Origin: Clostridia bacterium
GTDB lineage: Bacteria > Bacillota > Clostridia > Oscillospirales > Acutalibacteraceae
DNA length: 64,000 bases
Direction: 5' to 3'
NCBI GenBank assembly: GCA_017517665.1
Contig: JAFWYP010000007.1
Location: 1 to 64,000, forward strand
The notes under the pieces were generated by a model. That model had not been told where the DNA came from, did not search any database, and saw only the letters and a list, made by a program, of their open reading frames with translations. How positions within the stretch are numbered: position 1 is the stretch's first letter; each line of letters begins with the position of its first letter. Below are positions 47,059-58,218 of this stretch, in pieces. The position numbers were made by a program, and so were the translations under genes.

Positions 47059-47781
47059 TTGGAAGCTATACTTAATTTTGACCTTGCCATTTTTGAGTTC
47101 TTCGAGAAATTCGTAAGAATGGATTGGCTTACACCTATCATGAAAATCATCACAACACTCGGTGATGACGGCATTTTCTTCATTATTCTCGGTGTTGTTA
47201 TGCTGTTCTTCAAAAAGACAAGAAAAGCAGGTCTTGTATGTCTCGGCTCGCTTCTTGTTATGACTCTTCTCAACAATGAGCTTATCAAACCCATCATGGA
47301 ACGTCCCCGTCCCTATAACCTCACAATTCTTCCTCAGGCTGCGCAGAAGGCTTTTGAAGAATACGGCAGAGAATATGACTGGGTCGGTCTTTTCGGTAAG
47401 ATTGACTGGACTATCGACAGATTCCCCGGCTTCGCAGAAAAGTGGAACGCAGGCTATGTATGGCCCGATATCGTTGAATATATGAGCTCAAAATCGCTCT
47501 CATTCCCCTCAGGTCACACCTCATCCGCATTTACATTTGCAATGGCAATCACAATGGTTCTCAAGAAGAAGAGGGTTGCAATTCCTGCATTCATTTTTGC
47601 ATTCCTCATGGGTGTCTCAAGAATATATGTCGGTGTGCATTATCCCACAGATGTTATCGTCGGTGCAGTTGTAGGTATTATCTACGCTCTTATCGGTTTC
47701 GCTATCTTTGCAAAGCTTTATGATGCTGTTTATCCCAAAATCGAAAACGCTATCAAAAATAAAAAGGCAAAGAAAGCATAA
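47059..47781 (+). CDS. PAP2 family membrane phosphatase
   Basis: Probably an undecaprenyl-diphosphate or phosphatidate phosphatase at the membrane. The 240 residues carry the three PAP2 motifs: KPIMERPRP, PSGHTSS (about 152-158) and SRIYVGVHYPTDV (about 190). About five membrane helices flank them. The start is TTG 47059, 6-7 bases after AAGGAAG; no ATG fits. An insertion between motifs 1 and 2 (residues 90-150) holds a long extracytoplasmic loop. It is followed by a terminator and a tRNA gene. Confidence 0.9.
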   Translation: MEAILNFDLAIFEFFEKFVRMDWLTPIMKIITTLGDDGIFFIILGVVMLFFKKTRKAGLVCLGSLLVMTLLNNELIKPIMERPRPYNLTILPQAAQKAFEEYGREYDWVGLFGKIDWTIDRFPGFAEKWNAGYVWPDIVEYMSSKSLSFPSGHTSSAFTFAMAITMVLKKKRVAIPAFIFAFLMGVSRIYVGVHYPTDVIVGAVVGIIYALIGFAIFAKLYDAVYPKIENAIKNKKAKKA

Positions 47782-47966: not shown

Positions 47967-48043
47967 GCGCTGCTAGCTCAGCTGGATAGAGTGTTTGGCT
48001 ACGAACCAAAAGGTCAGGGGTTCGAATCCCTTGCAGCGCGCCA
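47967..48043 (+). tRNA. tRNA-Arg (anticodon ACG), integration target
   Basis: Acceptor GCGCTGC/GCAGCGC, anticodon loop CTACGAA giving ACG, encoded CCA. Its last 45 bases form the left copy of a 46-nt direct repeat whose other copy is at 57292-57337, so a genetic element is integrated at its 3' end. The gene remains intact. Confidence 0.97.
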
Positions 48044-48044
48044 T
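47999..48044 (+). repeat. Left attachment site (att direct repeat)
   Basis: 46 identical bases, from the anticodon loop to the base after CCA, shared with 57292-57337. This is the expected product of integrase crossover within a tRNA gene. Confidence 0.95.
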
Positions 48045-48045
48045 A

Positions 48046-48083
48046 CCGAAACTCCTTGTATATCAAGGAGTTTCGGCTTTTTT
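48046..48083 (+). terminator. Element-borne terminator after tRNA-Arg
   Basis: Perfect 13-bp stem CCGAAACTCCTTG with its complement, 5-base loop, then CTTTTTT. It replaces the tRNA's original terminator, which now lies at 57339-57382. Confidence 0.95.
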
Positions 48084-48117
48084 ATGCCCTTTGTGAAAAG
48101 TCTGAAAAACGCTGTTT

Positions 48118-48137
48118 TTCTAACAAAATTCTAACAA
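48118..48137 (+). repeat. Left candidate integrase arm-type site
   Basis: TTCTAACAAAATTCTAACAA, itself two TTCTAACAA units 11 bases apart. An identical copy in the same orientation lies near the right end. Confidence 0.75.
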
Positions 48138-48156
48138 GAGGTGTTTCAGACTCAAG

Positions 48157-49329
48157 CTACACAACGTTTTTGAAGCCTATGGAATTTCCGATAGTGTTGC
48201 CGAGATCCTTTTTTCTCTTCATATCAAGGTGACCGTAAAACTTGGCGGTGATGTTTACATCGGAATGCCCGAGCCATTCAGAAACGTCATAAAGCTCACG
48301 ACCCTCAGACAAAAGCAGGGCTGCGCAGCTATGACGCAAATCGTGAAATCTGATACGTTTCAAATCATTCTTTTTCAAAAGCTTCTTGAAATGTTTTGAA
48401 ATATAGTCAGGGTCATACAGTTTGCCGTTCGGCCATTTGAAGATATAATCGTTTTCAATATAGTCTTTACCGCAAGCGATTCTTTCTTCTTCTTCGCGGA
48501 CTTTGAGCCATTTGAAGAATGCAATCATATCATCTGACAGTGGGTATGTTCTGTTGCTTGCATCGGTTTTGGTTGAATCCTTTGCAACAACCTTGTTGTT
48601 ATACATCACAACCGTGTGTCTGACAATAAGCATTTTGTTTTCGAAGTCTATCGCATCCCAGCGAAGTCCGAGCACTTCGCTTCTGCGCATTCCGAAATAA
48701 ATTGTCGCATAAATCAGATGAAAGATTCTGTCGTCTTTAATCGCTTCCCAAACCTTCTGAACTTCTTCTGCACTGTAGAAATTAACCTTTTCGTGAGTAA
48801 GTGTCGGAAGTTTCACGAATTCCAGACAATCGTCATAAATGATTTTCTGTTTTCTTGCCAGATTAAAAATCAACTTAAAAACAGTCATATGGCTTTTGAG
48901 TGTTTTGGGAGAAAGTCCTTCGCCGGTTATTTTGTTCCCGGATACCTTCTTCTCATCAATGTATTTCTGTATTGTTTCAAACGTAACCTCGTTCACCTTT
49001 ATTTTGTGTTCTTCAAAATATGGAATGATATGAACTTTTACAATGCTTTCATAACCGCCATACGTGATTATATCAACTTCGTTTTTATACTCGTTGAGCC
49101 ATTTCTGTGCCAATTCATCAAGCGTAATGTCGGAAGGAACAAGCTTACTTTTTAATTCGTATTCCCTTTCGATCTCCTTTCTTTTTTCTTCGGCTTTTCT
49201 TTTGTTACCTTTGATTTCAAGACCTGTTGCAATCCATTTGGGTTTTCTTTTACCGTTTTCGTCATAAGTGTCTACAACAATGTAATAGTGGTTGCCTTTG
49301 GTCTGTATTGTAGCGCCTATATAAATCAT
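48157..49329 (-). CDS. int: Tyrosine site-specific integrase
   Basis: Catalyses integration and excision at the tRNA-Arg att site. The 390 residues comprise an N-terminal arm-binding domain (about 1-60, KPKWIATGLEIKGNKRKAE), a core-binding domain (about 70-175) and the catalytic domain with Arg in YFGMRRSEVLGLRW (about 212), Lys in TKTDASNR, the box HDLRHSCAALLL, His in GHSDVNIT and the nucleophile Tyr in FYGHL (about 368). ATG 49329 directly follows AAAGGAG, unusually close; the longer frame has no better start. It lies 113 bases from the left att repeat. Confidence 0.95.
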   Translation of the reverse strand: MIYIGATIQTKGNHYYIVVDTYDENGKRKPKWIATGLEIKGNKRKAEEKRKEIEREYELKSKLVPSDITLDELAQKWLNEYKNEVDIITYGGYESIVKVHIIPYFEEHKIKVNEVTFETIQKYIDEKKVSGNKITGEGLSPKTLKSHMTVFKLIFNLARKQKIIYDDCLEFVKLPTLTHEKVNFYSAEEVQKVWEAIKDDRIFHLIYATIYFGMRRSEVLGLRWDAIDFENKMLIVRHTVVMYNNKVVAKDSTKTDASNRTYPLSDDMIAFFKWLKVREEEERIACGKDYIENDYIFKWPNGKLYDPDYISKHFKKLLKKNDLKRIRFHDLRHSCAALLLSEGRELYDVSEWLGHSDVNITAKFYGHLDMKRKKDLGNTIGNSIGFKNVV

Positions 49330-49735
49330 CTCCTTTGAGCGGTTTATACAACGCCGTCCTTTTGGCGGAGTGACTTGATCCGAACTCCATACGGTTTTGA
49401 AAGGCATATTTTCGCCACATCTGCGTTAAAAACCTTTGAAATAGCCCCGTATTCCTGCAGATTTTTGCCTTGCTGTGACAAAAATCTGCTCTTCCAAAAC
49501 TGCGAAGCACCGAAAAGGTCGCAGTTTTGATTCAGCGGAGCGTTTCTTTTATGAAACCATACTGACGTATGGTGAAGAAAAAAACGCTTCGATGGGTCGG
49601 AAATACGACCTTTACGGCGTATTTAGTTCAAATCAAGTCACTCTGACTTAAGAATAGCGCGCAAACCGCTCTGTATAAAGTAAATTAATTGTGAATTTTC
49701 GGCTGAACGAAGAAAATCTCCGTTCAGCCATTTTG
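49330..49735. other. Non-coding block with a series of stem-loops between int and xis
   Basis: No gene is seen in these 400 bases. They contain perfect inverted repeats in series: 49457-49489 (11-bp arms), 49496-49528 (10-bp), 49556-49573 (7-bp, inside a longer imperfect pairing 49538-49590), 49595-49610 (5-bp), 49635-49649 (6-bp) and 49701-49729 (9-bp, GGCTGAACG/CGTTCAGCC, a likely end of the xis transcript). On the minus strand this is the region upstream of the integrase start. Confidence 0.8.
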
Positions 49736-49906
49736 TTATTTTGTGCCGAGTGAATCAATAAGTTTGCTTTTCACTACGCGGAGATTTTTGCCCACCTTAA
49801 GGACAAAAATCGTTCTGTTATTGATGAGCTTGTAAATGGTTTTTTCACAAACTCCGAGAAGCTCTGCCGTTTCCTTAACGGTCAGAAGTTCTTTTTCTTC
49901 AAACAT
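49736..49906 (-). CDS. xis: Excisionase-like small HTH protein
   Basis: 56 residues in one helix-turn-helix of the excisionase/MerR-like group: LLTVKETAELLGVCEKTIYKLINNR, shown here as LTVKETAELLG then EKTIYKLIN, and a wing LKVGKNLRVVKSKL. Such proteins steer the integrase to excision. The gene is under 60 residues. GAGGT lies upstream of ATG 49906. Its position one gene upstream of the integrase is typical. Confidence 0.88.
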   Translation of the reverse strand: MFEEKELLTVKETAELLGVCEKTIYKLINNRTIFVLKVGKNLRVVKSKLIDSLGTK

Positions 49907-50056
49907 CGGGTATACCTCATAAAATTATTTTTTGAGGATTTTCTATCTGAACTCATAATGAGTTGTTTTCATTTTCATCCTGAGAAAGCGAGCTTTCGTT
50001 TAACTAAAACGGGTGAAATCAAATCGTTCCCGTATCCTCAGGTTTAGTGCGAAATT

Positions 50057-51118
50057 TTAAGGTTCATAATCAATGGATAACGGATCTTTTTTGCTATCGT
50101 ATCCATCGTTTGGTGTGTTGTAATATGTTGTTTGATGATTGTGTGTTTCGCTGAATGCTTTTTCTTCAGCGATTTTTTCTTTAATAAGTGTTTCATATTT
50201 CTCAAACATAGGATCGAATTCGTGATCAATGCTAACCTTTACAAAAGCATCATAAAAATCAATAGCATCATTTATGTATTTGCTTGTGTCTTTGGTTTCG
50301 GCAATTTTCTTTTCAATTTCTGCAATTTCTGTTTCATCTTTTGCTTTTTGTTTTAAAAGCAAACAATGTTCATTGCTCAAAGCTGTAATTTGTTTCTGAG
50401 CAGTGGCTTTCTGTGCTTCAAGTTCGGCAAGCTTTTGTGTCAAAATATATGCTTCTTTTTCAAGATGTTTCTTGCCTTTGCCTGCATCGGGATGATGAAC
50501 CTCTATACCTCTCTGTCTGCAGAGATCATCAAGATAAGCTCTTTCTCTGTCAGTCCATTGAGTCAGTTCTGTCTCGCCGTATTTACCGTTTTTGTTTTGA
50601 AAACCCATTTCTTTAAGCGCCTTGGTATGAGAACACTGTATGCTCATACCACGTGAATTCTGAAAAGAGATTGGTATATAGTCTATATGACAATGTGGAG
50701 CTCCCCTCTCATCGTTATGGTAAAAAGCTCCAATCAGAATGAGATTGGGATTTCTCTTGCTCCATTCGTCAACAATCTGCTTACAAATTTCTTTACAAAC
50801 ACTGGCGGGCGGATGGGTATCCTTGTCACCGATTGTTACAATGACTTCATAGCACGGATTCTGCTGCTTGGAATTTTTTACTTTTCGATAATAGTCATCA
50901 ATGATACGGCGCGAATCCGATTGACGGGCATTATATTCTTTTACAGCTTCATCAAAGATTCTCTTGTAAGCCTTTCTGACATCTTCGTCAACCCACACTA
51001 TATATTCGCCGTTGGGGTCAATGTGCTTTTCTTTTGCAACGCATTTGGGGTCACGACGATTGTGCCCTTGTGCAACTGCTGTGCCTTTATGAAATGTGGT
51101 CGTTATGGGGTTTGCCAT
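50057..51118 (-). CDS. mob: Mob/Pre family relaxase (plasmid mobilisation protein)
   Basis: Nicks the element at its oriT and leads single-strand transfer. The 353 residues show the Mob_Pre motifs: AQGHNRRDPKC at the N-terminus, the YNARQSDSRRIIDDYYRK block (about 70-90) and the metal-binding HNDERGAPHCHIDYIPI (about 135-151). The C-terminal third is a long coiled coil (about 220-300). ATG 51118 is chosen because AAAGGAG lies 6-7 bases upstream. The transfer origin is expected in the hairpin region just beyond the start. No coupling protein or type IV secretion genes are present. Confidence 0.9.
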   Translation of the reverse strand: MANPITTTFHKGTAVAQGHNRRDPKCVAKEKHIDPNGEYIVWVDEDVRKAYKRIFDEAVKEYNARQSDSRRIIDDYYRKVKNSKQQNPCYEVIVTIGDKDTHPPASVCKEICKQIVDEWSKRNPNLILIGAFYHNDERGAPHCHIDYIPISFQNSRGMSIQCSHTKALKEMGFQNKNGKYGETELTQWTDRERAYLDDLCRQRGIEVHHPDAGKGKKHLEKEAYILTQKLAELEAQKATAQKQITALSNEHCLLLKQKAKDETEIAEIEKKIAETKDTSKYINDAIDFYDAFVKVSIDHEFDPMFEKYETLIKEKIAEEKAFSETHNHQTTYYNTPNDGYDSKKDPLSIDYEP

Positions 51119-51576
51119 GGGTTCTCCTTTCTTTGATTTGCCTGCAATGCAATCGTTTTTCTTCGCTTGCATTGTTTGAGGTTTTGATTTCTTATGCCGA
51201 AAAACATAGCATAAGAAATGTTATCGCTCTGTCTGATTAATTGTTCAGACCGATAACTGTAAAACCTCCGGCACAATGCTTCGCTCAGAAGCACTCTTGC
51301 GTTTGCACGTCAAATCAATAACTCAATAGTGGTTGCGCGCAGCACAACCCCATTTCGCTCCTTATGCCGGAGGGCAGAGGCTGTCTGCGGACACCCTGAC
51401 GCCGACTGATATTCAGACTCAGAATTATCTGTCGGCTATAAAAATCTCGTTTTATACGCTCAAGCGGGAATAGCGAAAAACTCGATTTCTGCAAAAACTC
51501 AGCCTGACCTCCCCTGCGTTTTTGCAGAACACTTTTGCTTTGAAAAGCGGAAATTCAAAAAGTGTTCTTTGCTAAA
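51119..51576. other. Hairpin-rich non-coding region upstream of mob, oriT candidate
   Basis: No gene is supported here. It contains CCTCCGGCA (51265-51273) paired with TGCCGGAGG (51365-51373), CTGCAAAAAC (51489-51498) with its complement (51518-51527), and AGAACACTTTT (51526-51536) with its complement (51558-51568), plus a small GGTTG/CAACC stem near 51330. Mob/Pre origins lie beside the relaxase start and are hairpin-based. Confidence 0.65.
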
Positions 51577-51676
51577 GTATGTCACATTACCTACCCTCTA
51601 AAAATTCAAGGTTGATTTTCGGGTGTGAATGTACTCATGAAATTAACTTTTATCAGATGAAAAAAGATAGCAAAAA

Positions 51677-51715
51677 CCTCCGAAGTGTTAAGATTAAATC
51701 AAAACATTTCGGAGG
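51677..51715. other. 13-bp stem-loop upstream of the SIR2-like gene
   Basis: CCTCCGAAGTGTT pairs with AACATTTCGGAGG (one G-U), 13-base loop. An A-run lies to its left, so on the minus strand it may act as a terminator. Confidence 0.65.
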
Positions 51716-51781
51716 GTTGTTGAATATGTACAAATTACAGGGTGAAAATTTGACTTGCAGAGCATGTGCCTGCGGTAGACT

Positions 51782-51809
51782 TTTACAAGTCAAAGTGCTA
51801 TACTATAAT
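51782..51809 (+). promoter_or_regulatory. Promoter of the SIR2-like/LRR genes
   Basis: TTTACA, 16 bases, TATAAT, about 60 bases before the ATG at 51869. Confidence 0.7.
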
Positions 51810-51868
51810 TATAAACAAGAAAAATGATTGTTAAATAAAGTCTACTTTTTTTAACAGGATGTGATTTA

Positions 51869-52766
51869 ATGCAGGATGTTTTGTTTCTCGGTAACGGGAT
51901 AAACAGAGCGTTTAACGGCGATTCGTGGAATAATCTTGTTGAGAAGATTTCCAAGGAATATGATCAAGCCTGACCGCTGATGACGTTGAACACTTGCCGT
52001 TTCCGATGAAGGTTGTTGCTTTGTCAGGTGACAGAGTTGACAAGGCTATGCAATTTATATCGAAGGATATGAATTTTGTTAATTCTGACAGGCAGTCTGA
52101 ATTGATAAGACGAATCTTTGATTTGCCGATTGAGAATATTATAACGGCGAATTACACTTTTGAACTTGAACAGATATCGGGAATCAAACCATCTCTTTAC
52201 AGTTACAGAAAGATTCGCAAATTTACCAAAGGCTGTAAGGGCAAAGAAGATAAATTCGGTTTGTTCAGATATTATCAGCCTGAGAATTCCGATAAGAAGA
52301 TATGGCATATTCACGGCGACATAACAGCTCCGTCAACGGTAATAATGGGCAATTATTATTACGGAAAGTTGCTCAGCGAAATTCAGACATATACATCAGG
52401 GTTTATCAAACGATATAAAACGTTAAAAAACAAGGTTTGGAAATAACGGAACAAAGCTGGGTTGATTCGTTTCTGGCGAAGAACGTGCATATTCTCGGAT
52501 TCGGGCTTGATTTAAGTGAAGCTGATATCTGGTGGCTGATTTGCTGCAAAAAGCGAAACTTTCCTGATACGAAAATATATTTTTATGTTCCGAAGGATAA
52601 AAAACATCCGCTCGGCAAGGCAAAAGAGGCTTTGCTTCGGTCATATAACGTTGTTATCGTTGACGATATTCCTTTTGATGGGGAATATGAACGTTTTTAT
52701 CATAAAGCAATAGAAAGAATAGAATCTGAAATTCAGAACGGAGGAAAAACAAATGAAAATGTTTAA
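51869..52766 (+). pseudogene. SIR2-like protein gene with two single-base frameshifts
   Basis: Three reading frames in succession together encode one SIR2_2-like protein of about 299 residues: a start with VLFLGNGINRAF (nucleotide loop), FDLPIENIITANYTFELE, the catalytic-type WHIHGD, then VHILGFGLDLSEADIWWL. The first break is near 51966 (frame restored by adding one A in GATCAAGCC), the second in the A6 run at 52425-52430 (restored by one extra A). SIR2-like proteins often deplete NAD+ in phage defence; here that is inference. The two shifts mean decay, phase variation or sequence error. The last 14 bases overlap the LRR gene. Confidence 0.82.
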
Positions 52767-55700
52767 GAAGATTCTTGCGACAGTTTTGTGTGTTATCATG
52801 GTGTTCGGTTCGGCGCCGCTTTCGGGATTGGTTGGGCTTGACTTGCCCGAATTCAATCTCTTTACACCCAAGGCTTCTGCGGCAACTTACAGCGGTACTT
52901 GCGGTGATAATCTTACATGGACTCTTGATACGAATACAGGTCGACTTATTATAAATGGTTCAGGTGAAATGTATGATTGGATATCGGGTTCATCCGTTCC
53001 GTGGTATTCATATCGGTCATATATCGAAAAAGTAAGAATCAGTAACAGCGTAACAAGCATAGGCGAATATGCGTTCTACGACTGCTCTGGTCTCACAAGC
53101 ATAACAATTCCCGACAGCGTAACAAGCATAGGCAAATATGCGTTCTACTACTGCTCTGGTCTCTCAAGAATAACAATCCCAGACGGCGTAACAAGCATAG
53201 GCGTTTCTGCGTTCTATGGATGCACCAAACTCACAAGCATAACAATTCCCGACGGCGTAACAAGCATAGGCGGTTCTGCGTTCTGGGACTGCTATGGTCT
53301 CACAAGCATAACAATTCCCGACAGTGTAACAAGCATAGGCGGTTCTGCGTTCTATGGATGCACCAAACTCACAAGCATAACAATTCCCGACAGTGTAACA
53401 AGCATAGGTTATCGTGCGTTCTTCAGATGCACCGGTCTCACAAGAATAACAATCGGTAGTGGCGTAACAAGCATTGGCGAAAGAGCGTTCTATGGATGCA
53501 CCGGTCTCACAAGCATAACAATTCCCGACAGTGTAACAAGCATAGGTTATCTTGCGTTCTCAAATTGCGACAGTTTGGAAAAAATATATTATGCAGGGAC
53601 GCCCGAACAATGGGAAGCTATTTCTGTTGGTGAAAATAATGACAGTTTGCCGAATATAATTATTTTTGAGTGCAACTCAGAAAGACCTTATTACCAAAAA
53701 GGAAGATGTGGCGAAAATCTTGAATGGATTTTATATGCTGATGGCGAACTTGTAATCAATGGTACAGGTGGTATGAAAGATTGGTCTTCAAAGACAAGTA
53801 CTCCTTGGTATAAGTGGATCTCACAAATAAAATCTGTAAGTGTTGACAATGGTGTAACAAGCATAGGTAAATATGCGTTCGATGGTTGCACCGATCTCAC
53901 GAGCATAACAATTCCCGACAGCGTAACAAGCATAGGCGAATCTGCGTTCTATGGATGCACCGGTCTCAAAGATGTTTATTATAACGGAAGCGGCAGGGAC
54001 TGGGAGAAAATTGAAATTAGGAGTAATAATTCTCTATTAAGCCAAGCAACAAAACATTATACATATTATTATATTACTTGGATTACAGCCAGTGAAGCAA
54101 TCGAGGAAAAGGTTAAGGTTGGTGATCGCATAATTCTGCCTGCCGAGCCTCAAAAAGAAGGATATTCCTTTGTCGGCTGGGATAAGGTTGTTCCTGAAAC
54201 GATGCCTGCAAACAATCTTGAATTTGTTGCGGAATGGTCGATTAATTCTCATACTGTAACTTGGATTGTTGATGGAAATGAAACTGTTGATACATACAAT
54301 TACGGCGACACAATCGTTAAACCTGCTGATCCCGAGAAGGTTGGTTATACATTCACAGATTGGGGTGCTGAAATTTCCACAACAGTTCCGGATGAAGATT
54401 TAGTATTCACTGCAACGTGGCAGGCGAAGGAATACAATGTAACATGGAATGTTGATGGCGAAATATCAACAGATACTTATTATTTTGATGATGCAATCAC
54501 TGCTCCCACTCCTGAAAAAGACGGATATTTCTTCATCGGTTGGGATAAAGTTGTTCCCGATACAATGCCTGCAGAATCTCTTGAGTTTGTTGCTCAATGG
54601 AGCAAGGTTGAATATGAATTTGAGTTTGATGGAAATGGCATAATTATCACAGCGGCAAAGGACGCAAGCGGTGACATTGAAATACCTGCAATAATCAACG
54701 GCTATCCTGTAATTGCTATTGATGAATGTGCGTTTGCAGGTAGTGATATCACAAGCGTTACAATTTTCGAAGGTGTTGAGTCAATCGGTTTGTTTGCTTT
54801 TGCTTACTGTGATAAGCTTGAAACAGTAAACATCCCCTCAAGCGTAACCGAAATAGATTATGGTGCATTCTCGGGTTGCTCAAATATTGAAACAATCAAT
54901 ATTTCCGCTGATAACAACAACTTCGTAACAGATGAATACGGCGTTGTTTATACAGAGGGATTCATTGAACTTGTTTATGCTCCTGCAAAATCTGTGGGCG
55001 AAGCGTATGCTATGCGCTCAACTGCAACTTATATCTATCCGTTCGCATTCTCGGATTGCTCTGATTTTGCTCTCACAATTTCAGATAATCTTTCTGACGA
55101 GGATGCAGATGAATTCCTGCTTTATATTTCTGTAAATGAGTTTATTACAAACGACAGCTGCATTAATTTCAAAGCGGTTGACGGAGTGCTTTATAACAAG
55201 GCGGTAACAAAACTTTATAAATATCCGGTTGACAACAAGCGTGAATTCTATGCTCTTCCGAGCAGCGTAACAACAATTGCTGATGCAACTGCTTTTGTTT
55301 GCGTAGATACGGCATTTTATCTTTTTGTTGATGAAGACATTATTATAGCAGGTGTCGATGAGATTTTCAAAACACCTGAAAATCTTACTCTTCATATTGA
55401 TTACGCAAGCGAATTTACAGTTGATCATTTTACTATGACACTTTTGGGCCCTGCTCACGTTTGTGTAGGTGATATCACAAAAGCGGATGCTGACGCACTT
55501 AACGAAAATGCAGAGGAAATCATTGCTGAGCAGGAAGAAATTTGGGATGAGATTGAGCCTGAACTCACTCCCGGCACAGATGAATATGATTTCATGAAGG
55601 CTTATGTTTTGGGTTATATTGATATGATAACCAACTATGTTGATTGCGAAAACAATCATACCCGCCTTCACAAATATGCGGCAGTTGTTGAAAAAGATGA

Positions 55701-56991
55701 AGGCAACTGCACAAACGATGGATGCACAAATTACAAGTGCGTATGTGGCTATGAGTTTACAGAAGCAATCACAGCACCCGGTCATAATTACGTTGCTGTT
55801 GTAACTGCTCCCACTTGCACAAAAGAAGGTTATACAACTCATACTTGCTCTGCTTGCGGCGATACATACGTTAATGATGAAGTTGTTAAACTCGGGCACA
55901 ACTATGACACAGTTGTAACCGACCCCACTTGCACAAAAGAAGGTTATACAACTTATACTTGCTCTGCTTGCGGCGATACATACGTTAATGATGAAGTGTC
56001 TGCAACAGGTCACTCACATGAATCTAAAGTAACCAAAGAGCCGACTTGCACAACAACCGGCATAAAAACATTTACCTGCCATTGCGGTGATAGCTATACA
56101 GAGATTATCAAGGCCAACGGTCACACCAAGGGAGAATGGGAATATATCGGCGGTAAGGAATATGCAAAGAACTGCACGGTGTGCGGAGATAAGCTTGAAA
56201 GCAAAATTGTTACTGTAAATATGATGATCAATGGTGAGAATGTGAACAAAACTCAGATTCTCAACAAGTCGACAGCAACAGTTGTCGCAACGGTTACAGA
56301 TAATTTTACAAATAATCTTGTGTTTGCTTCATCTGATGACAGCATAGTTTCGATTGACGCAAACGGCAACATAATTGCAAATGATGTTGGCAAGGCAACC
56401 GTTACCGTTACAATCAGCGGCACTGCAATTTCCGATAGCATTGAGGTTGAAGTTTTGCCTCGCGATTTTACTATCACTTGGAATGTAAACGGTAAGGTGA
56501 CAAAGCAAACAATTAAGGAATATGCATCTATTACTCCGAACATTGATACAAAACGTCCCGGATACAAGTTTGTAGGATGGGATTCTGAAGTTCCTTCTAC
56601 CATGCCTGCCAAAAACCTTTCATTTACTGCAAAATTCGAACTCTCGTTCAAGATGTCAATCCGCAAACCTTCGACCACAACCATCAGCTACGGCGATAGC
56701 ATTATTCTCCACGCAGATATGAACGAAGCCCTTCCGAGCGGCTGGACAGTCAAGTGGACGGCGGACAACGGCAACTTCTCTTATTCGGCTAACGGCGAAA
56801 CCTGCACTATCACTCCGAGCAAGAGCGGTGACACAACCTTTACCGCAACGGTTTATGACGAAAACGGAAACGAAATCAGCAAAGACACTCAGACAATGAA
56901 GTCAAAAGCAGGTTTCTTTGATAAGTTTGCCGCTTTCTTCAGAAAACTGTTTGGTATGACGAAGATTATTCAGCAGTCAATCAATTTCTAA
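52753..56991 (+). CDS. Large BspA-type leucine-rich-repeat surface protein with InlB-like repeats
   Basis: 1412 residues, secreted. Signal peptide about 1-44 (ends ASAATY). LRR array 1 is about residues 91-275: eight 23-residue units of the ITIPDSVTSIG-AF-CxxLTS type. Arrays 2 (about 360-420) and 3 (about 655-720) have two units each. InlB/Listeria-Bacteroides-type repeats (GYxFxGWDKVVPxTMPA) occur at about 439-615 and 1237-1296. A Cys-rich region with CSACGDTYVNDEV repeats spans 970-1150 and a Big_2-like Ig domain about 1155-1236. The C-terminus ends GFFDKFAAFFRKLFG; no LPXTG or S-layer motif is seen. GGAGG lies before the ATG. Likely adhesion cargo; function is inference. Confidence 0.93.
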   Translation: MKMFKKILATVLCVIMVFGSAPLSGLVGLDLPEFNLFTPKASAATYSGTCGDNLTWTLDTNTGRLIINGSGEMYDWISGSSVPWYSYRSYIEKVRISNSVTSIGEYAFYDCSGLTSITIPDSVTSIGKYAFYYCSGLSRITIPDGVTSIGVSAFYGCTKLTSITIPDGVTSIGGSAFWDCYGLTSITIPDSVTSIGGSAFYGCTKLTSITIPDSVTSIGYRAFFRCTGLTRITIGSGVTSIGERAFYGCTGLTSITIPDSVTSIGYLAFSNCDSLEKIYYAGTPEQWEAISVGENNDSLPNIIIFECNSERPYYQKGRCGENLEWILYADGELVINGTGGMKDWSSKTSTPWYKWISQIKSVSVDNGVTSIGKYAFDGCTDLTSITIPDSVTSIGESAFYGCTGLKDVYYNGSGRDWEKIEIRSNNSLLSQATKHYTYYYITWITASEAIEEKVKVGDRIILPAEPQKEGYSFVGWDKVVPETMPANNLEFVAEWSINSHTVTWIVDGNETVDTYNYGDTIVKPADPEKVGYTFTDWGAEISTTVPDEDLVFTATWQAKEYNVTWNVDGEISTDTYYFDDAITAPTPEKDGYFFIGWDKVVPDTMPAESLEFVAQWSKVEYEFEFDGNGIIITAAKDASGDIEIPAIINGYPVIAIDECAFAGSDITSVTIFEGVESIGLFAFAYCDKLETVNIPSSVTEIDYGAFSGCSNIETINISADNNNFVTDEYGVVYTEGFIELVYAPAKSVGEAYAMRSTATYIYPFAFSDCSDFALTISDNLSDEDADEFLLYISVNEFITNDSCINFKAVDGVLYNKAVTKLYKYPVDNKREFYALPSSVTTIADATAFVCVDTAFYLFVDEDIIIAGVDEIFKTPENLTLHIDYASEFTVDHFTMTLLGPAHVCVGDITKADADALNENAEEIIAEQEEIWDEIEPELTPGTDEYDFMKAYVLGYIDMITNYVDCENNHTRLHKYAAVVEKDEGNCTNDGCTNYKCVCGYEFTEAITAPGHNYVAVVTAPTCTKEGYTTHTCSACGDTYVNDEVVKLGHNYDTVVTDPTCTKEGYTTYTCSACGDTYVNDEVSATGHSHESKVTKEPTCTTTGIKTFTCHCGDSYTEIIKANGHTKGEWEYIGGKEYAKNCTVCGDKLESKIVTVNMMINGENVNKTQILNKSTATVVATVTDNFTNNLVFASSDDSIVSIDANGNIIANDVGKATVTVTISGTAISDSIEVEVLPRDFTITWNVNGKVTKQTIKEYASITPNIDTKRPGYKFVGWDSEVPSTMPAKNLSFTAKFELSFKMSIRKPSTTTISYGDSIILHADMNEALPSGWTVKWTADNGNFSYSANGETCTITPSKSGDTTFTATVYDENGNEISKDTQTMKSKAGFFDKFAAFFRKLFGMTKIIQQSINF

Positions 56992-57010
56992 AGTTTATAC
57001 CTCAATCAAC

Positions 57011-57039
57011 AAAGAGCTCACCTTCGGGTGGGCTCTTTT
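57011..57039 (+). terminator. Terminator of the LRR gene
   Basis: Twelve-pair stem AAAGAGCTCACC/GGTGGGCTCTTT (one G-U) with TTCG loop and a short T-run, 20 bases after the stop. Confidence 0.9.
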
Positions 57040-57050
57040 GAAATATGAGA

Positions 57051-57079
57051 AAAGCCCGTCAAAAGACGAGCTTTTTTGA
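57051..57079 (+). terminator. Second terminator hairpin in tandem
   Basis: AAAGCCCGTC/GACGAGCTTT (one mismatch), AAAA loop, then a T-run. It backs up the first one and insulates the right end. Confidence 0.85.
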
Positions 57080-57128
57080 TGAATTATATTCTGCAGGAAA
57101 TCCTGCGCCAAAAGTACGGCGTTGTTTG

Positions 57129-57148
57129 TTCTAACAAAATTCTAACAA
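57129..57148 (+). repeat. Right candidate integrase arm-type site
   Basis: TTCTAACAAAATTCTAACAA, identical and co-oriented with the left copy at 48118-48137, 144 bases inside the right att repeat. The rest of 57080-57291 shows no gene. Confidence 0.75.
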
Positions 57149-57291
57149 ACGGACGAAAAATGAGTTTTTGCATGAATCCAAGCATATCAACACTTGCAGA
57201 AATTGACCTTTTGGTTTCTTGAACTGAACTTTTGTCAGATAATTCTGCAAGGTTCCACCAAATGGAATGCAATTCCACTATCTGAGTGTCC

Positions 57292-57337
57292 CTACGAACC
57301 AAAAGGTCAGGGGTTCGAATCCCTTGCAGCGCGCCAT
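57292..57337 (+). repeat. Right attachment site (tRNA-Arg 3' remnant)
   Basis: 46 bases identical to 47999-48044, consisting of the tRNA-Arg 3' half without its 5' half; the bases before it differ from a tRNA, so it is not a gene. Confidence 0.95.
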
Positions 57338-57338
57338 C

Positions 57339-57382
57339 TCGAGTGTTCATAACGGATTCAAGTTGTGAACACTCGATTTTTT
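57339..57382 (+). terminator. Original terminator of the tRNA-Arg gene
   Basis: Perfect 11-bp stem TCGAGTGTTCA/TGAACACTCGA followed by six T, directly after the right att repeat. The rest up to 57495 holds no gene. Confidence 0.92.
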
Positions 57383-57495: not shown

Positions 57496-58218
57496 TTATG
57501 CGGAAAATTTTTCAACAAACTCTATGATAGGTGTATTGTCGTCCAGTCCGTGTGGATGGTGTGCACAGTTTACTTTGCCGACGGAAACAATTATTCCACC
57601 GTTTTCCCGATAATACTTTTCAAGAACAGCACCGTTTTCTTCGTAAGGAACAATATTATCGGAATCTCCGTACACAAGTATAACGGGAATCCCGTTCTCC
57701 AGAAGCAATTGCATTTTATCAATGGGATGCTCTCGGTAGCAGATAAGCTGCGACAAATCCATGCCGGTCGCTTCTATAAATTCCGGCAGCATTTCATTAT
57801 TTGCTTTTCCGAAGCCGGCGGGGCACGAAAGGAGATTCATTACCGGCGCATCAAGATAAAGAGCCGAAACACATTCCGGGTATTTTGCTGCGAATTTGCT
57901 TGCTATCAGTCCACCGCAGCTCATGCCGACGGGAACACATTTTTTATATAAGCCGTATTCTTCCGATAAATATGCGGCAAAACGCTTTTTTAAATCAAGA
58001 TCTTCATCAAGACACCAACGGGTAATGTTTTTTATAAAGGCAAGATGCCAACCCTTTTTCACCATTTCAATTTCAAATTCCGGAAAAGCGCCGAAATATT
58101 CAGTTTTTAACAACCAGTTTTTGTTTCCGTTTGCATTTTCGGGTAAAACAAGAACAGCCTCTCTTCCTTCAAACAGAAAATCAAGTCGCTTAAAGCCATT
58201 CCAGATTGATTCAGTCAT
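57496..58218 (-). CDS. Alpha/beta hydrolase (prolyl-oligopeptidase-like esterase)
   Basis: 240 residues with the nucleophile elbow PVGMSCGGLIASKFA (Ser near 99), acid region VILVYGDSDNIVPYEE and a His-rich end VNCAHHPHGLDD that supplies the catalytic His. The fold and HHPHG ending recall family-9 peptidase-like or sugar-ester hydrolases. No signal peptide is present. Its neighbours (SGNH hydrolase and GPH transporter) suggest deacylation of an imported sugar. Substrate is inference. Confidence 0.85.
   Translation of the reverse strand: MTESIWNGFKRLDFLFEGREAVLVLPENANGNKNWLLKTEYFGAFPEFEIEMVKKGWHLAFIKNITRWCLDEDLDLKKRFAAYLSEEYGLYKKCVPVGMSCGGLIASKFAAKYPECVSALYLDAPVMNLLSCPAGFGKANNEMLPEFIEATGMDLSQLICYREHPIDKMQLLLENGIPVILVYGDSDNIVPYEENGAVLEKYYRENGGIIVSVGKVNCAHHPHGLDDNTPIIEFVEKFSA

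Follow-up and report, generated by a model that had tools for sequence, protein, structure and literature searches.

The window analysed here is a stretch of 64,000 nucleotides, bases 1–64000 of contig C7 in a draft genome of a Clostridia bacterium (2.77 Mb in 68 contigs, 88.7% complete). Between positions 47999 and 57337 it carries genes for an integrase (int), a small excisionase (xis) and a relaxase (mob), a broken gene resembling SIR2/AbiH proteins and a long gene for a leucine-rich repeat (LRR) protein, all enclosed by direct repeats that begin inside a tRNA-Arg(ACG) gene. The segment is, with high likelihood, a canonical integrative and mobilizable element (IME). A 9.3-kb mobilizable element in tRNA-Arg had been proposed in the initial annotation, and the repeats, tRNA, integrase, excisionase and relaxase all bear it out. 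The element is a new member of an already known kind of IME, with an LRR surface-protein gene and a dead, defence-like gene as cargo; the strongest new content is the modular family to which it belongs and the link of this family to biosynthesis islands. Compared genomes are numbered with a G (G000 is the window's own), their contigs with a C and individual loci with an L. The same-genus set held 44 genomes besides the window's, a subset of which was classified for site occupancy, and the searches for the integrase and the relaxase covered 147 and 295 other genomes, respectively. The ends of the element and its immediate surroundings are as follows:

47059–47781, + strand: left flank gene of the host, a PAP2 phosphatase (Pfam PAP2, 2.5e-26)
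47967–48043, + strand: tRNA-Arg(acg), the integration target, left intact (ARAGORN; Rfam tRNA, 2.6e-12)
47999–48044, + strand: attachment core attL, 46 nt, the 3' part of the tRNA gene
48045–48083, + strand: intrinsic-terminator-like hairpin at the element's left end, folding at -22.0 kcal/mol, in place of the tRNA terminator
57047–57291, no strand: conserved right end of the element (identity 86.7% to G011:C14, 93% from 57087 to G036:C31 and 96% to G044)
57292–57337, + strand: attachment core attR, 46 nt
57338–57382, + strand: host tRNA terminator, displaced rightward by the element (directly 3' of the tRNA in G017, G023 and G024)
57496–58218, - strand: right flank gene of the host, an alpha/beta hydrolase (Pfam Abhydrolase_1), near the tRNA in G022 and G041

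The two cores match over all 46 nt without a mismatch, as first described, and the left copy is the 3' part of the tRNA gene. ARAGORN called no tRNA at the right copy. Apart from this pair, exact 30-mers repeated in the window occur solely inside the LRR gene. A hairpin follows the core immediately on its 3' side in both window copies and in 24 of 24 further core copies (21 loci), where the 48 nt 3' of the core fold at -14 to -25 kcal/mol and the last 28 nt hold a T run of 3 to 7. One hairpin type (ACCGAAACTCCTTG...CAAGGAGTTTCGG) is common to the integrase-bearing left ends, and in G011, G035 and others its changes are matched. It therefore seems that the element brings a substitute for the tRNA terminator, or a terminator that the convergent int gene also uses. 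The view of 57338–57382 as a flank unique to this locus was rejected because the sequence occurs elsewhere, for example in G000:C25, where it follows another tRNA-like end; it probably serves the genus generally as a tRNA terminator.

An unoccupied tRNA-Arg site, which the initial annotation had suggested looking for, is present in at least 5 of the 44 other same-genus genomes, so that not all relatives carry the element at this locus. In G017, G023 and G024, the core and the 45 nt found after the window's right repeat lie directly at the tRNA with 91 of 91 nt identical. In G022 and G041, both flanking genes are preserved: a single contig holds the PAP2 and hydrolase genes together with the tRNA, whose core is present once (with two mismatches in G041). 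The PAP2 gene also adjoins this tRNA in G011 and G002, as well as in all five genomes with an empty site. Separately, tRNA-Arg(ACG) appears as an integration hotspot (loci L061, L031 and L059): in G002 the site is occupied by another element, about 6 kb between two cores, whose integrase differs from the window's (28%), and G006 and G036 have two cores in tandem.

The search for related copies returned the same element in a second genome, G044. This copy is 98.5% identical over 49719–55883 and 97.4% over 55912–57336, and its right flank is a sequence other than the window's. The resident carB locus differs by 13–17% in six pairs among G000, G002, G008 and G011, a comparison made without G044. 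The 97–98% identity of the element against this resident-locus divergence suggests that the movement was recent.

The recombination genes lie next to the left end, and Pfam and TIGR01764 agree with their initial designation as an integrase and a small excisionase:

48157–49407, - strand: tyrosine integrase (Pfam Phage_integrase, 3.1e-23; R, HxLRH, H and Y boxes present)
49366–49645, no strand: insert of about 280 nt between xis and int with imperfect terminal inverted repeats, resembling a miniature inverted-repeat transposable element (MITE); absent from G011 and G039
49736–49906, - strand: excisionase-like helix-turn-helix protein, 56 aa (HTH_17, 7e-11; Tn916-Xis, 2.1e-5; TIGR01764 excise, 1.2e-9, above cut-off)

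The integrase very probably begins at about 49329, and not at 49407, since the MITE-like insert supplies the DNA upstream of 49365. Partial relatives of this insert occur at L064 10290–10415 (75%) and L215 10838–10954 (89%). Integrases at least 80% identical were found in at least 7 of the 147 genomes (G011, G039, G008, G006, G044, G035 and G033), all of the same genus, with matches covering 58–106 residues in G044, G035 and G033; among the integrase matches listed, the next are below 50% identity. Homologous integrases occur at the same tRNA with other neighbours; in G011, G039 and G008, genes other than the window's follow the integrase. Between the window and G011, the nonsynonymous (dN) and synonymous (dS) divergence of int is 0.022 and 0.340, respectively (dN/dS about 0.065), which indicates purifying selection between the diverged copies.

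The gene beyond xis codes for a protein with the conserved domain of Mob_Pre relaxases (PF01076; 33.5 bits against a curated cut-off of 25.5), in agreement with the Mob/Pre relaxase first proposed. It is preceded by a conserved non-coding region that we regard as the candidate origin of transfer (oriT):

50057–51172, - strand: Mob_Pre relaxase, 371 aa (Pfam 4.7e-8, above cut-off)
51173–51718, no strand: conserved non-coding region upstream of mob, 546 nt, candidate oriT region (92.1% identical to G006)
51318–51374, + strand: core of the candidate oriT, containing two hairpins and conserved in 6 sequences, 5 of them distinct
51674–51718, no strand: hairpin (inverted repeat) closing the mob/oriT module at the cargo boundary, beyond which identity to G006 is 56–40%

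The relaxase has motif I (HxxR) as HNRR at residue 37. Only G044 (97%) and G006 (87%), among the 295 genomes, have relaxases at least 80% identical to it. Its plasmid relatives are distant: none of the 222 records reaches 60% identity or covers 80% of the query. No solved structure matched the relaxase at 0.001. In G006, the relaxase and its upstream 546 nt adjoin a serine recombinase of 560 aa. There, too, the divergent neighbour is an LRR gene, but a different one (42% identity to that of the window over 311 residues); the SIR2-like gene has no match at this locus. Cargo and recombinase have thus been exchanged around a conserved module. The dN and dS of mob against G006 (0.073 and 0.763; dN/dS 0.10) indicate purifying selection between these diverged copies as well. 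The dS of 0.76 contrasts with the 92.1% identity of the upstream region, a similarity that stops at 51718.

Within this region, the segment 51318–51374 persists in an IMG/VR contig of 11.4 kb and, in G234, next to relaxases 47–51% identical to that of the window. Helix 1 of the segment has double changes in 2 of 7 pairs, with 55 of 55 cells paired, although 28 of 500 shuffles reach the same score. DNA folding at 51515–51620 is unremarkable (z -1.44), and the case for an oriT is therefore built on the conservation at 51318–51374. Plasmids searched at blastn sensitivity yielded no match to the region upstream of the relaxase, and Rfam holds no family for it; a weak Rfam match to STnc370 elsewhere in the element, far below the gathering score, was taken as chance. 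The IMG/VR contig (L201) combines the oriT-like motif with a Mob_Pre gene and two serine recombinases; its appearance is that of a mobilizable element, not of a virus. In G234:C3 (L113 1–9055), the neighbours of a relaxase relative (51%) are a second integrase-like frame and a nonribosomal peptide synthetase frame longer than 2,100 aa.

Several observations weigh against an active IME. The relaxase has no match to MOBV1 motif II, NY(D/E)L, and its HNDERGAPHCH is one residue longer than the published MOBV1 motif III, HxDExxPHUH; it is therefore filed as a member of the Mob_Pre family only and not as MOBV1. The compared genomes are mostly draft assemblies in many contigs, and the full identity of the G044 copy is not established because its integrase is split over two contig ends (the last 102 residues seen are 98% identical). 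Other observations would fit a fixed remnant that is integrated but no longer excises or moves, the insert at 49366–49645 having severed int from its promoter, and of which only the cargo is kept. The insert, absent from two relatives, separates xis from int and might impair int expression. The integrase match in G008 is without the first 118 residues, so some copies have decayed; the SIR2/AbiH-like gene has decayed in both the window and G044. Recent constraint on mob is not evident either, as dN (0.015) about equals dS (0.014) over 16 differences between the window and G044. Yet the int, xis and mob frames are intact in the window, and the close identity of the G044 copy against the divergence of the resident locus argues for recent movement. 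We consider a fixed remnant unlikely and retain the reading of an IME.

The cargo extends from the oriT region to the conserved right end and comprises two genes:

51869–52766, + strand: SIR2/AbiH-like pseudogene in pieces 51869–51973, 51994–52446 and 52437–52766 (start ATG 51869)
52753–56991, + strand: BspA-type LRR protein, 1412 aa, open frame (LRR_5, 2e-102; Flg_new; Big_2 just below cut-off)

The first of these had been described as a broken SIR2 gene, which was right; more exactly, it resembles AbiH/SIR2_2 proteins. A single piece matches both AbiH (PF14253; 2e-5, 25.1 bits against a cut-off of 30.9) and SIR2_2 (PF13289; 8e-5, 23.2 bits against 24.5), in each case below the curated cut-off; the PADLOC matches, to LmuA/ThsA and from one SIR2 piece, were no more than weak. 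Among three intact relatives, the AbiH cut-off is reached by one (31.1 against 30.9), that of SIR2_2 by another (29.9 against 24.5) and neither by the third. Two frame changes interrupt the window gene. Of these, only the second is present in the G044 copy, which additionally contains an in-frame stop not seen in the window. Programmed frameshifting could in principle keep such a gene intact, giving the element a working two-gene cargo of defence and surface proteins, and both the later frame change common to the two copies and the otherwise approximately 99% conservation of the gene would suit it. This is very improbable, however, given the unshared frame change in the window, the unshared stop in G044 and the single frames of 308 aa (G102), 335 aa (G004) and 319 aa (G245) in the intact relatives. 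The sequence features indicate a pseudogene in both copies.

The second cargo gene had been presented as a 1412-residue BspA-type protein preceded by a SIR2-like gene, and it holds up as an open frame with a strong match to the BspA-type LRR family (PF13306, LRR_5; 338.5 bits against a cut-off of 27.7). Its N-terminus is, by eye, signal-peptide-like, and its C-terminal tail reads KAGFFDK..AFFRKLFG. The frame is open in both the window and G044, with a length difference of 38 residues that corresponds to one 114-nt repeat; the two differ by dN 0.0096 and dS 0.0206 over 1374 codons, changes too few to prove selection. LRR proteins encoded on G000:C28, G017:C5 and G032:C10 have this C-terminal tail too, and the gene therefore fits the genus's own set. 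This tail (window 56902–56984; KAGFFDKIIAFFKKLFG type; L126, L156 and L109), common to several LRR proteins of the genus, is perhaps a surface-retention signal. Of the original label, surface-adhesin cargo, the BspA-type LRR architecture stands, whereas "adhesin" was inferred from that architecture only.

That such cargo is unusual, as also claimed, is doubtful because LRR_5 genes are common in the genome and lie beside two other mobilization modules of the genus (G006:C1 and G017:C5). The window's genome holds 67 LRR_5 matches in about 18 frames, this gene included, which makes an LRR gene on a 9-kb element moderately, not extremely, unexpected. We found no literature match for an integrative mobilizable element with a leucine-rich repeat surface protein. 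An enrichment of LRR genes beside mob was tried as well and judged not convincing: such genes adjoin mob at 4 of the 13 places examined in the genus, out of 15 in all, and count as 3 distinct cases because G000 and G044 share one element, against about 0.1 expected per place from the approximately 18 frames in 2.77 Mb. In G017:C5 (L126 5176–7392), a 738-aa serine recombinase fused to a SpoVT C-terminal domain lies beside a relaxase and a 1219-aa LRR gene, and G033:C59 has a 738-aa frame with a similar match.

We propose that the integrase would recombine the element's attachment site with the 3' part of tRNA-Arg(ACG), rebuilding the tRNA, while the left end would provide it with a new terminator hairpin. 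Acting together, Xis and the integrase would release the element in circular form and leave the site empty again. Nicking by the relaxase would take place in the conserved region upstream of mob, and the type IV secretion system of a helper element would export the strand. No coupling-protein or mating-pore gene was found among the six element frames given to Pfam (int, xis, mob, two SIR2-like pieces and LRR), a search that did not include shorter frames. Two VirD4-type coupling proteins are encoded elsewhere in the window's genome (C48 and C18); they make a helper plausible and may belong to helpers. The cargo slot runs from the end of the candidate oriT region (51718) to the right end (about 57047) and now contains the decayed SIR2/AbiH-like gene, presumably a former phage-defence gene, and the intact LRR gene, whose product is probably secreted and may have a role in attachment to the host, fibre or other cells. 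Phage satellites, too, carry a tyrosine integrase and an excisionase at a tRNA gene, and one IMG/VR contig holds a mob/oriT-like relative, though beside serine recombinases, but a phage satellite or small prophage remnant in place of a conjugation-dependent element is scarcely credible given the Mob_Pre relaxase with its conserved upstream hairpins, the lack of capsid, packaging or replication families among the same six frames and the failure of the viral contig set to yield any relative of int.

The IME reading agrees with what the literature describes for this class (reviewed in PMC5704250), in which canonical members combine a tyrosine integrase with a MOBV relaxase, as does IMESag-rpsI of Streptococcus agalactiae (PMC5090054). 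Like the elements in these accounts, ours has a tyrosine integrase, direct repeats, a relaxase without secretion genes, a size within the usual 5–15 kb, a target at the 3' end of a housekeeping or tRNA gene and, upstream of the relaxase gene, a candidate oriT containing inverted repeats (PMC5090054, PMC5704250). It is unlike IMESag-rpsI and other canonical IMEs in its occurrence in a metagenome-assembled genome of gut Clostridia, its tRNA-Arg(ACG) site and its relaxase without MOBV1 motif II, and unlike canonical IMEs with resistance genes in carrying a BspA-type LRR protein and a pseudogene. IME_Rho_tet of gut Bacillota (PMC12904643) is likewise a gut Firmicutes mobilizable element with a relaxase and variable cargo, but has a serine recombinase, mobC and tet genes, and all genes in the same orientation. 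The G006 mob module also sits with a serine recombinase, although kinship with IME_Rho_tet is not established. The LRR protein shares with BspA-type surface proteins (Pfam LRR_5) an LRR_5 array with Flg_new domains; it differs in lying on a mobile element and in a C-terminal tail found in other LRR proteins of the genus.

Ends of the same element family also border biosynthesis genes; some of these were assigned by model in a single genome and recognised in the others through DNA or tblastn matches. In G011:C8, the int end is followed by purB (cut), guaA, pyrG, purF, carAB, dapF, dapL, nadE and lysA. The same block in G008:C1 runs on to asnS, purC and purA and likewise adjoins a truncated copy of the window's int. 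The right end in G011 lies on C14, beside ilvA-ridA-leuACDB-ilvBHCD. The flanks of C8 and C14 are the window's PAP2 and hydrolase genes; if C8 and C14 belong together, which is not established, the insertion would therefore amount to at least 34 kb compared with G022 and G041. The C8 block is 98–99% identical in G008 and G002, against 84–87% at the resident carB locus. The ilvA of the C14 block was found in 10 of 45 genomes of the genus (E ≤1e-100), nine at 97–100%, with three copies in G039 and none at this threshold in the window's incomplete genome. DNA resembling the right end lies near ilvA in G011 and G036, with the core, and in G008 and G033 as 156–171 nt without it; no right end was found at the G023 locus, and elsewhere the fetched contigs ended first. 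A T-box leader precedes ilv in one of three loci given (G039:C44), with none called in G011 and G008, and leuACDB was not matched in the G006, G008 and G033 copies of the ilv cluster. Anabolic clusters bordered by ends of this family are patchy and nearly identical across species (L028, L071, L060, L131, L030, L143, L145 and L215–L224, which include G011:C8, G011:C14, G008:C1 and G002:C39).

These arrangements are tentatively consistent with a cassette loader, in which the tRNA-Arg(ACG) integrase and the two ends might carry either small LRR elements or large anabolic islands (T-box-led ilv-leu; at least 19 kb of purine, pyrimidine, lysine and NAD genes) between species, with biosynthetic capacity as mobile cargo. 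Mob_Pre had no match at 1e-20 in G011 and G008, and segments of this size would therefore need another relaxase or other means. The carB type of the C8 block is also widespread in the genus at 68–81% identity, and part of the block may thus be an ordinary chromosomal cluster. Literature searches gave no match for purine or lysine biosynthesis genes carried by integrative conjugative elements in the rumen, and, among the papers listed for branched-chain amino acids, mobile elements and gut auxotrophy, none on the subject by title.

The locus adds a well-delimited mobile element, with empty sites and a near-identical copy in a second genome, to a gut lineage represented here by assembled genomes. 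In its family, integrase, relaxase/oriT and cargo swap as separate blocks. If the cassette loader is true, mobile elements would in part determine amino-acid and nucleotide prototrophy in gut Clostridia, a point that would bear on models of cross-feeding.

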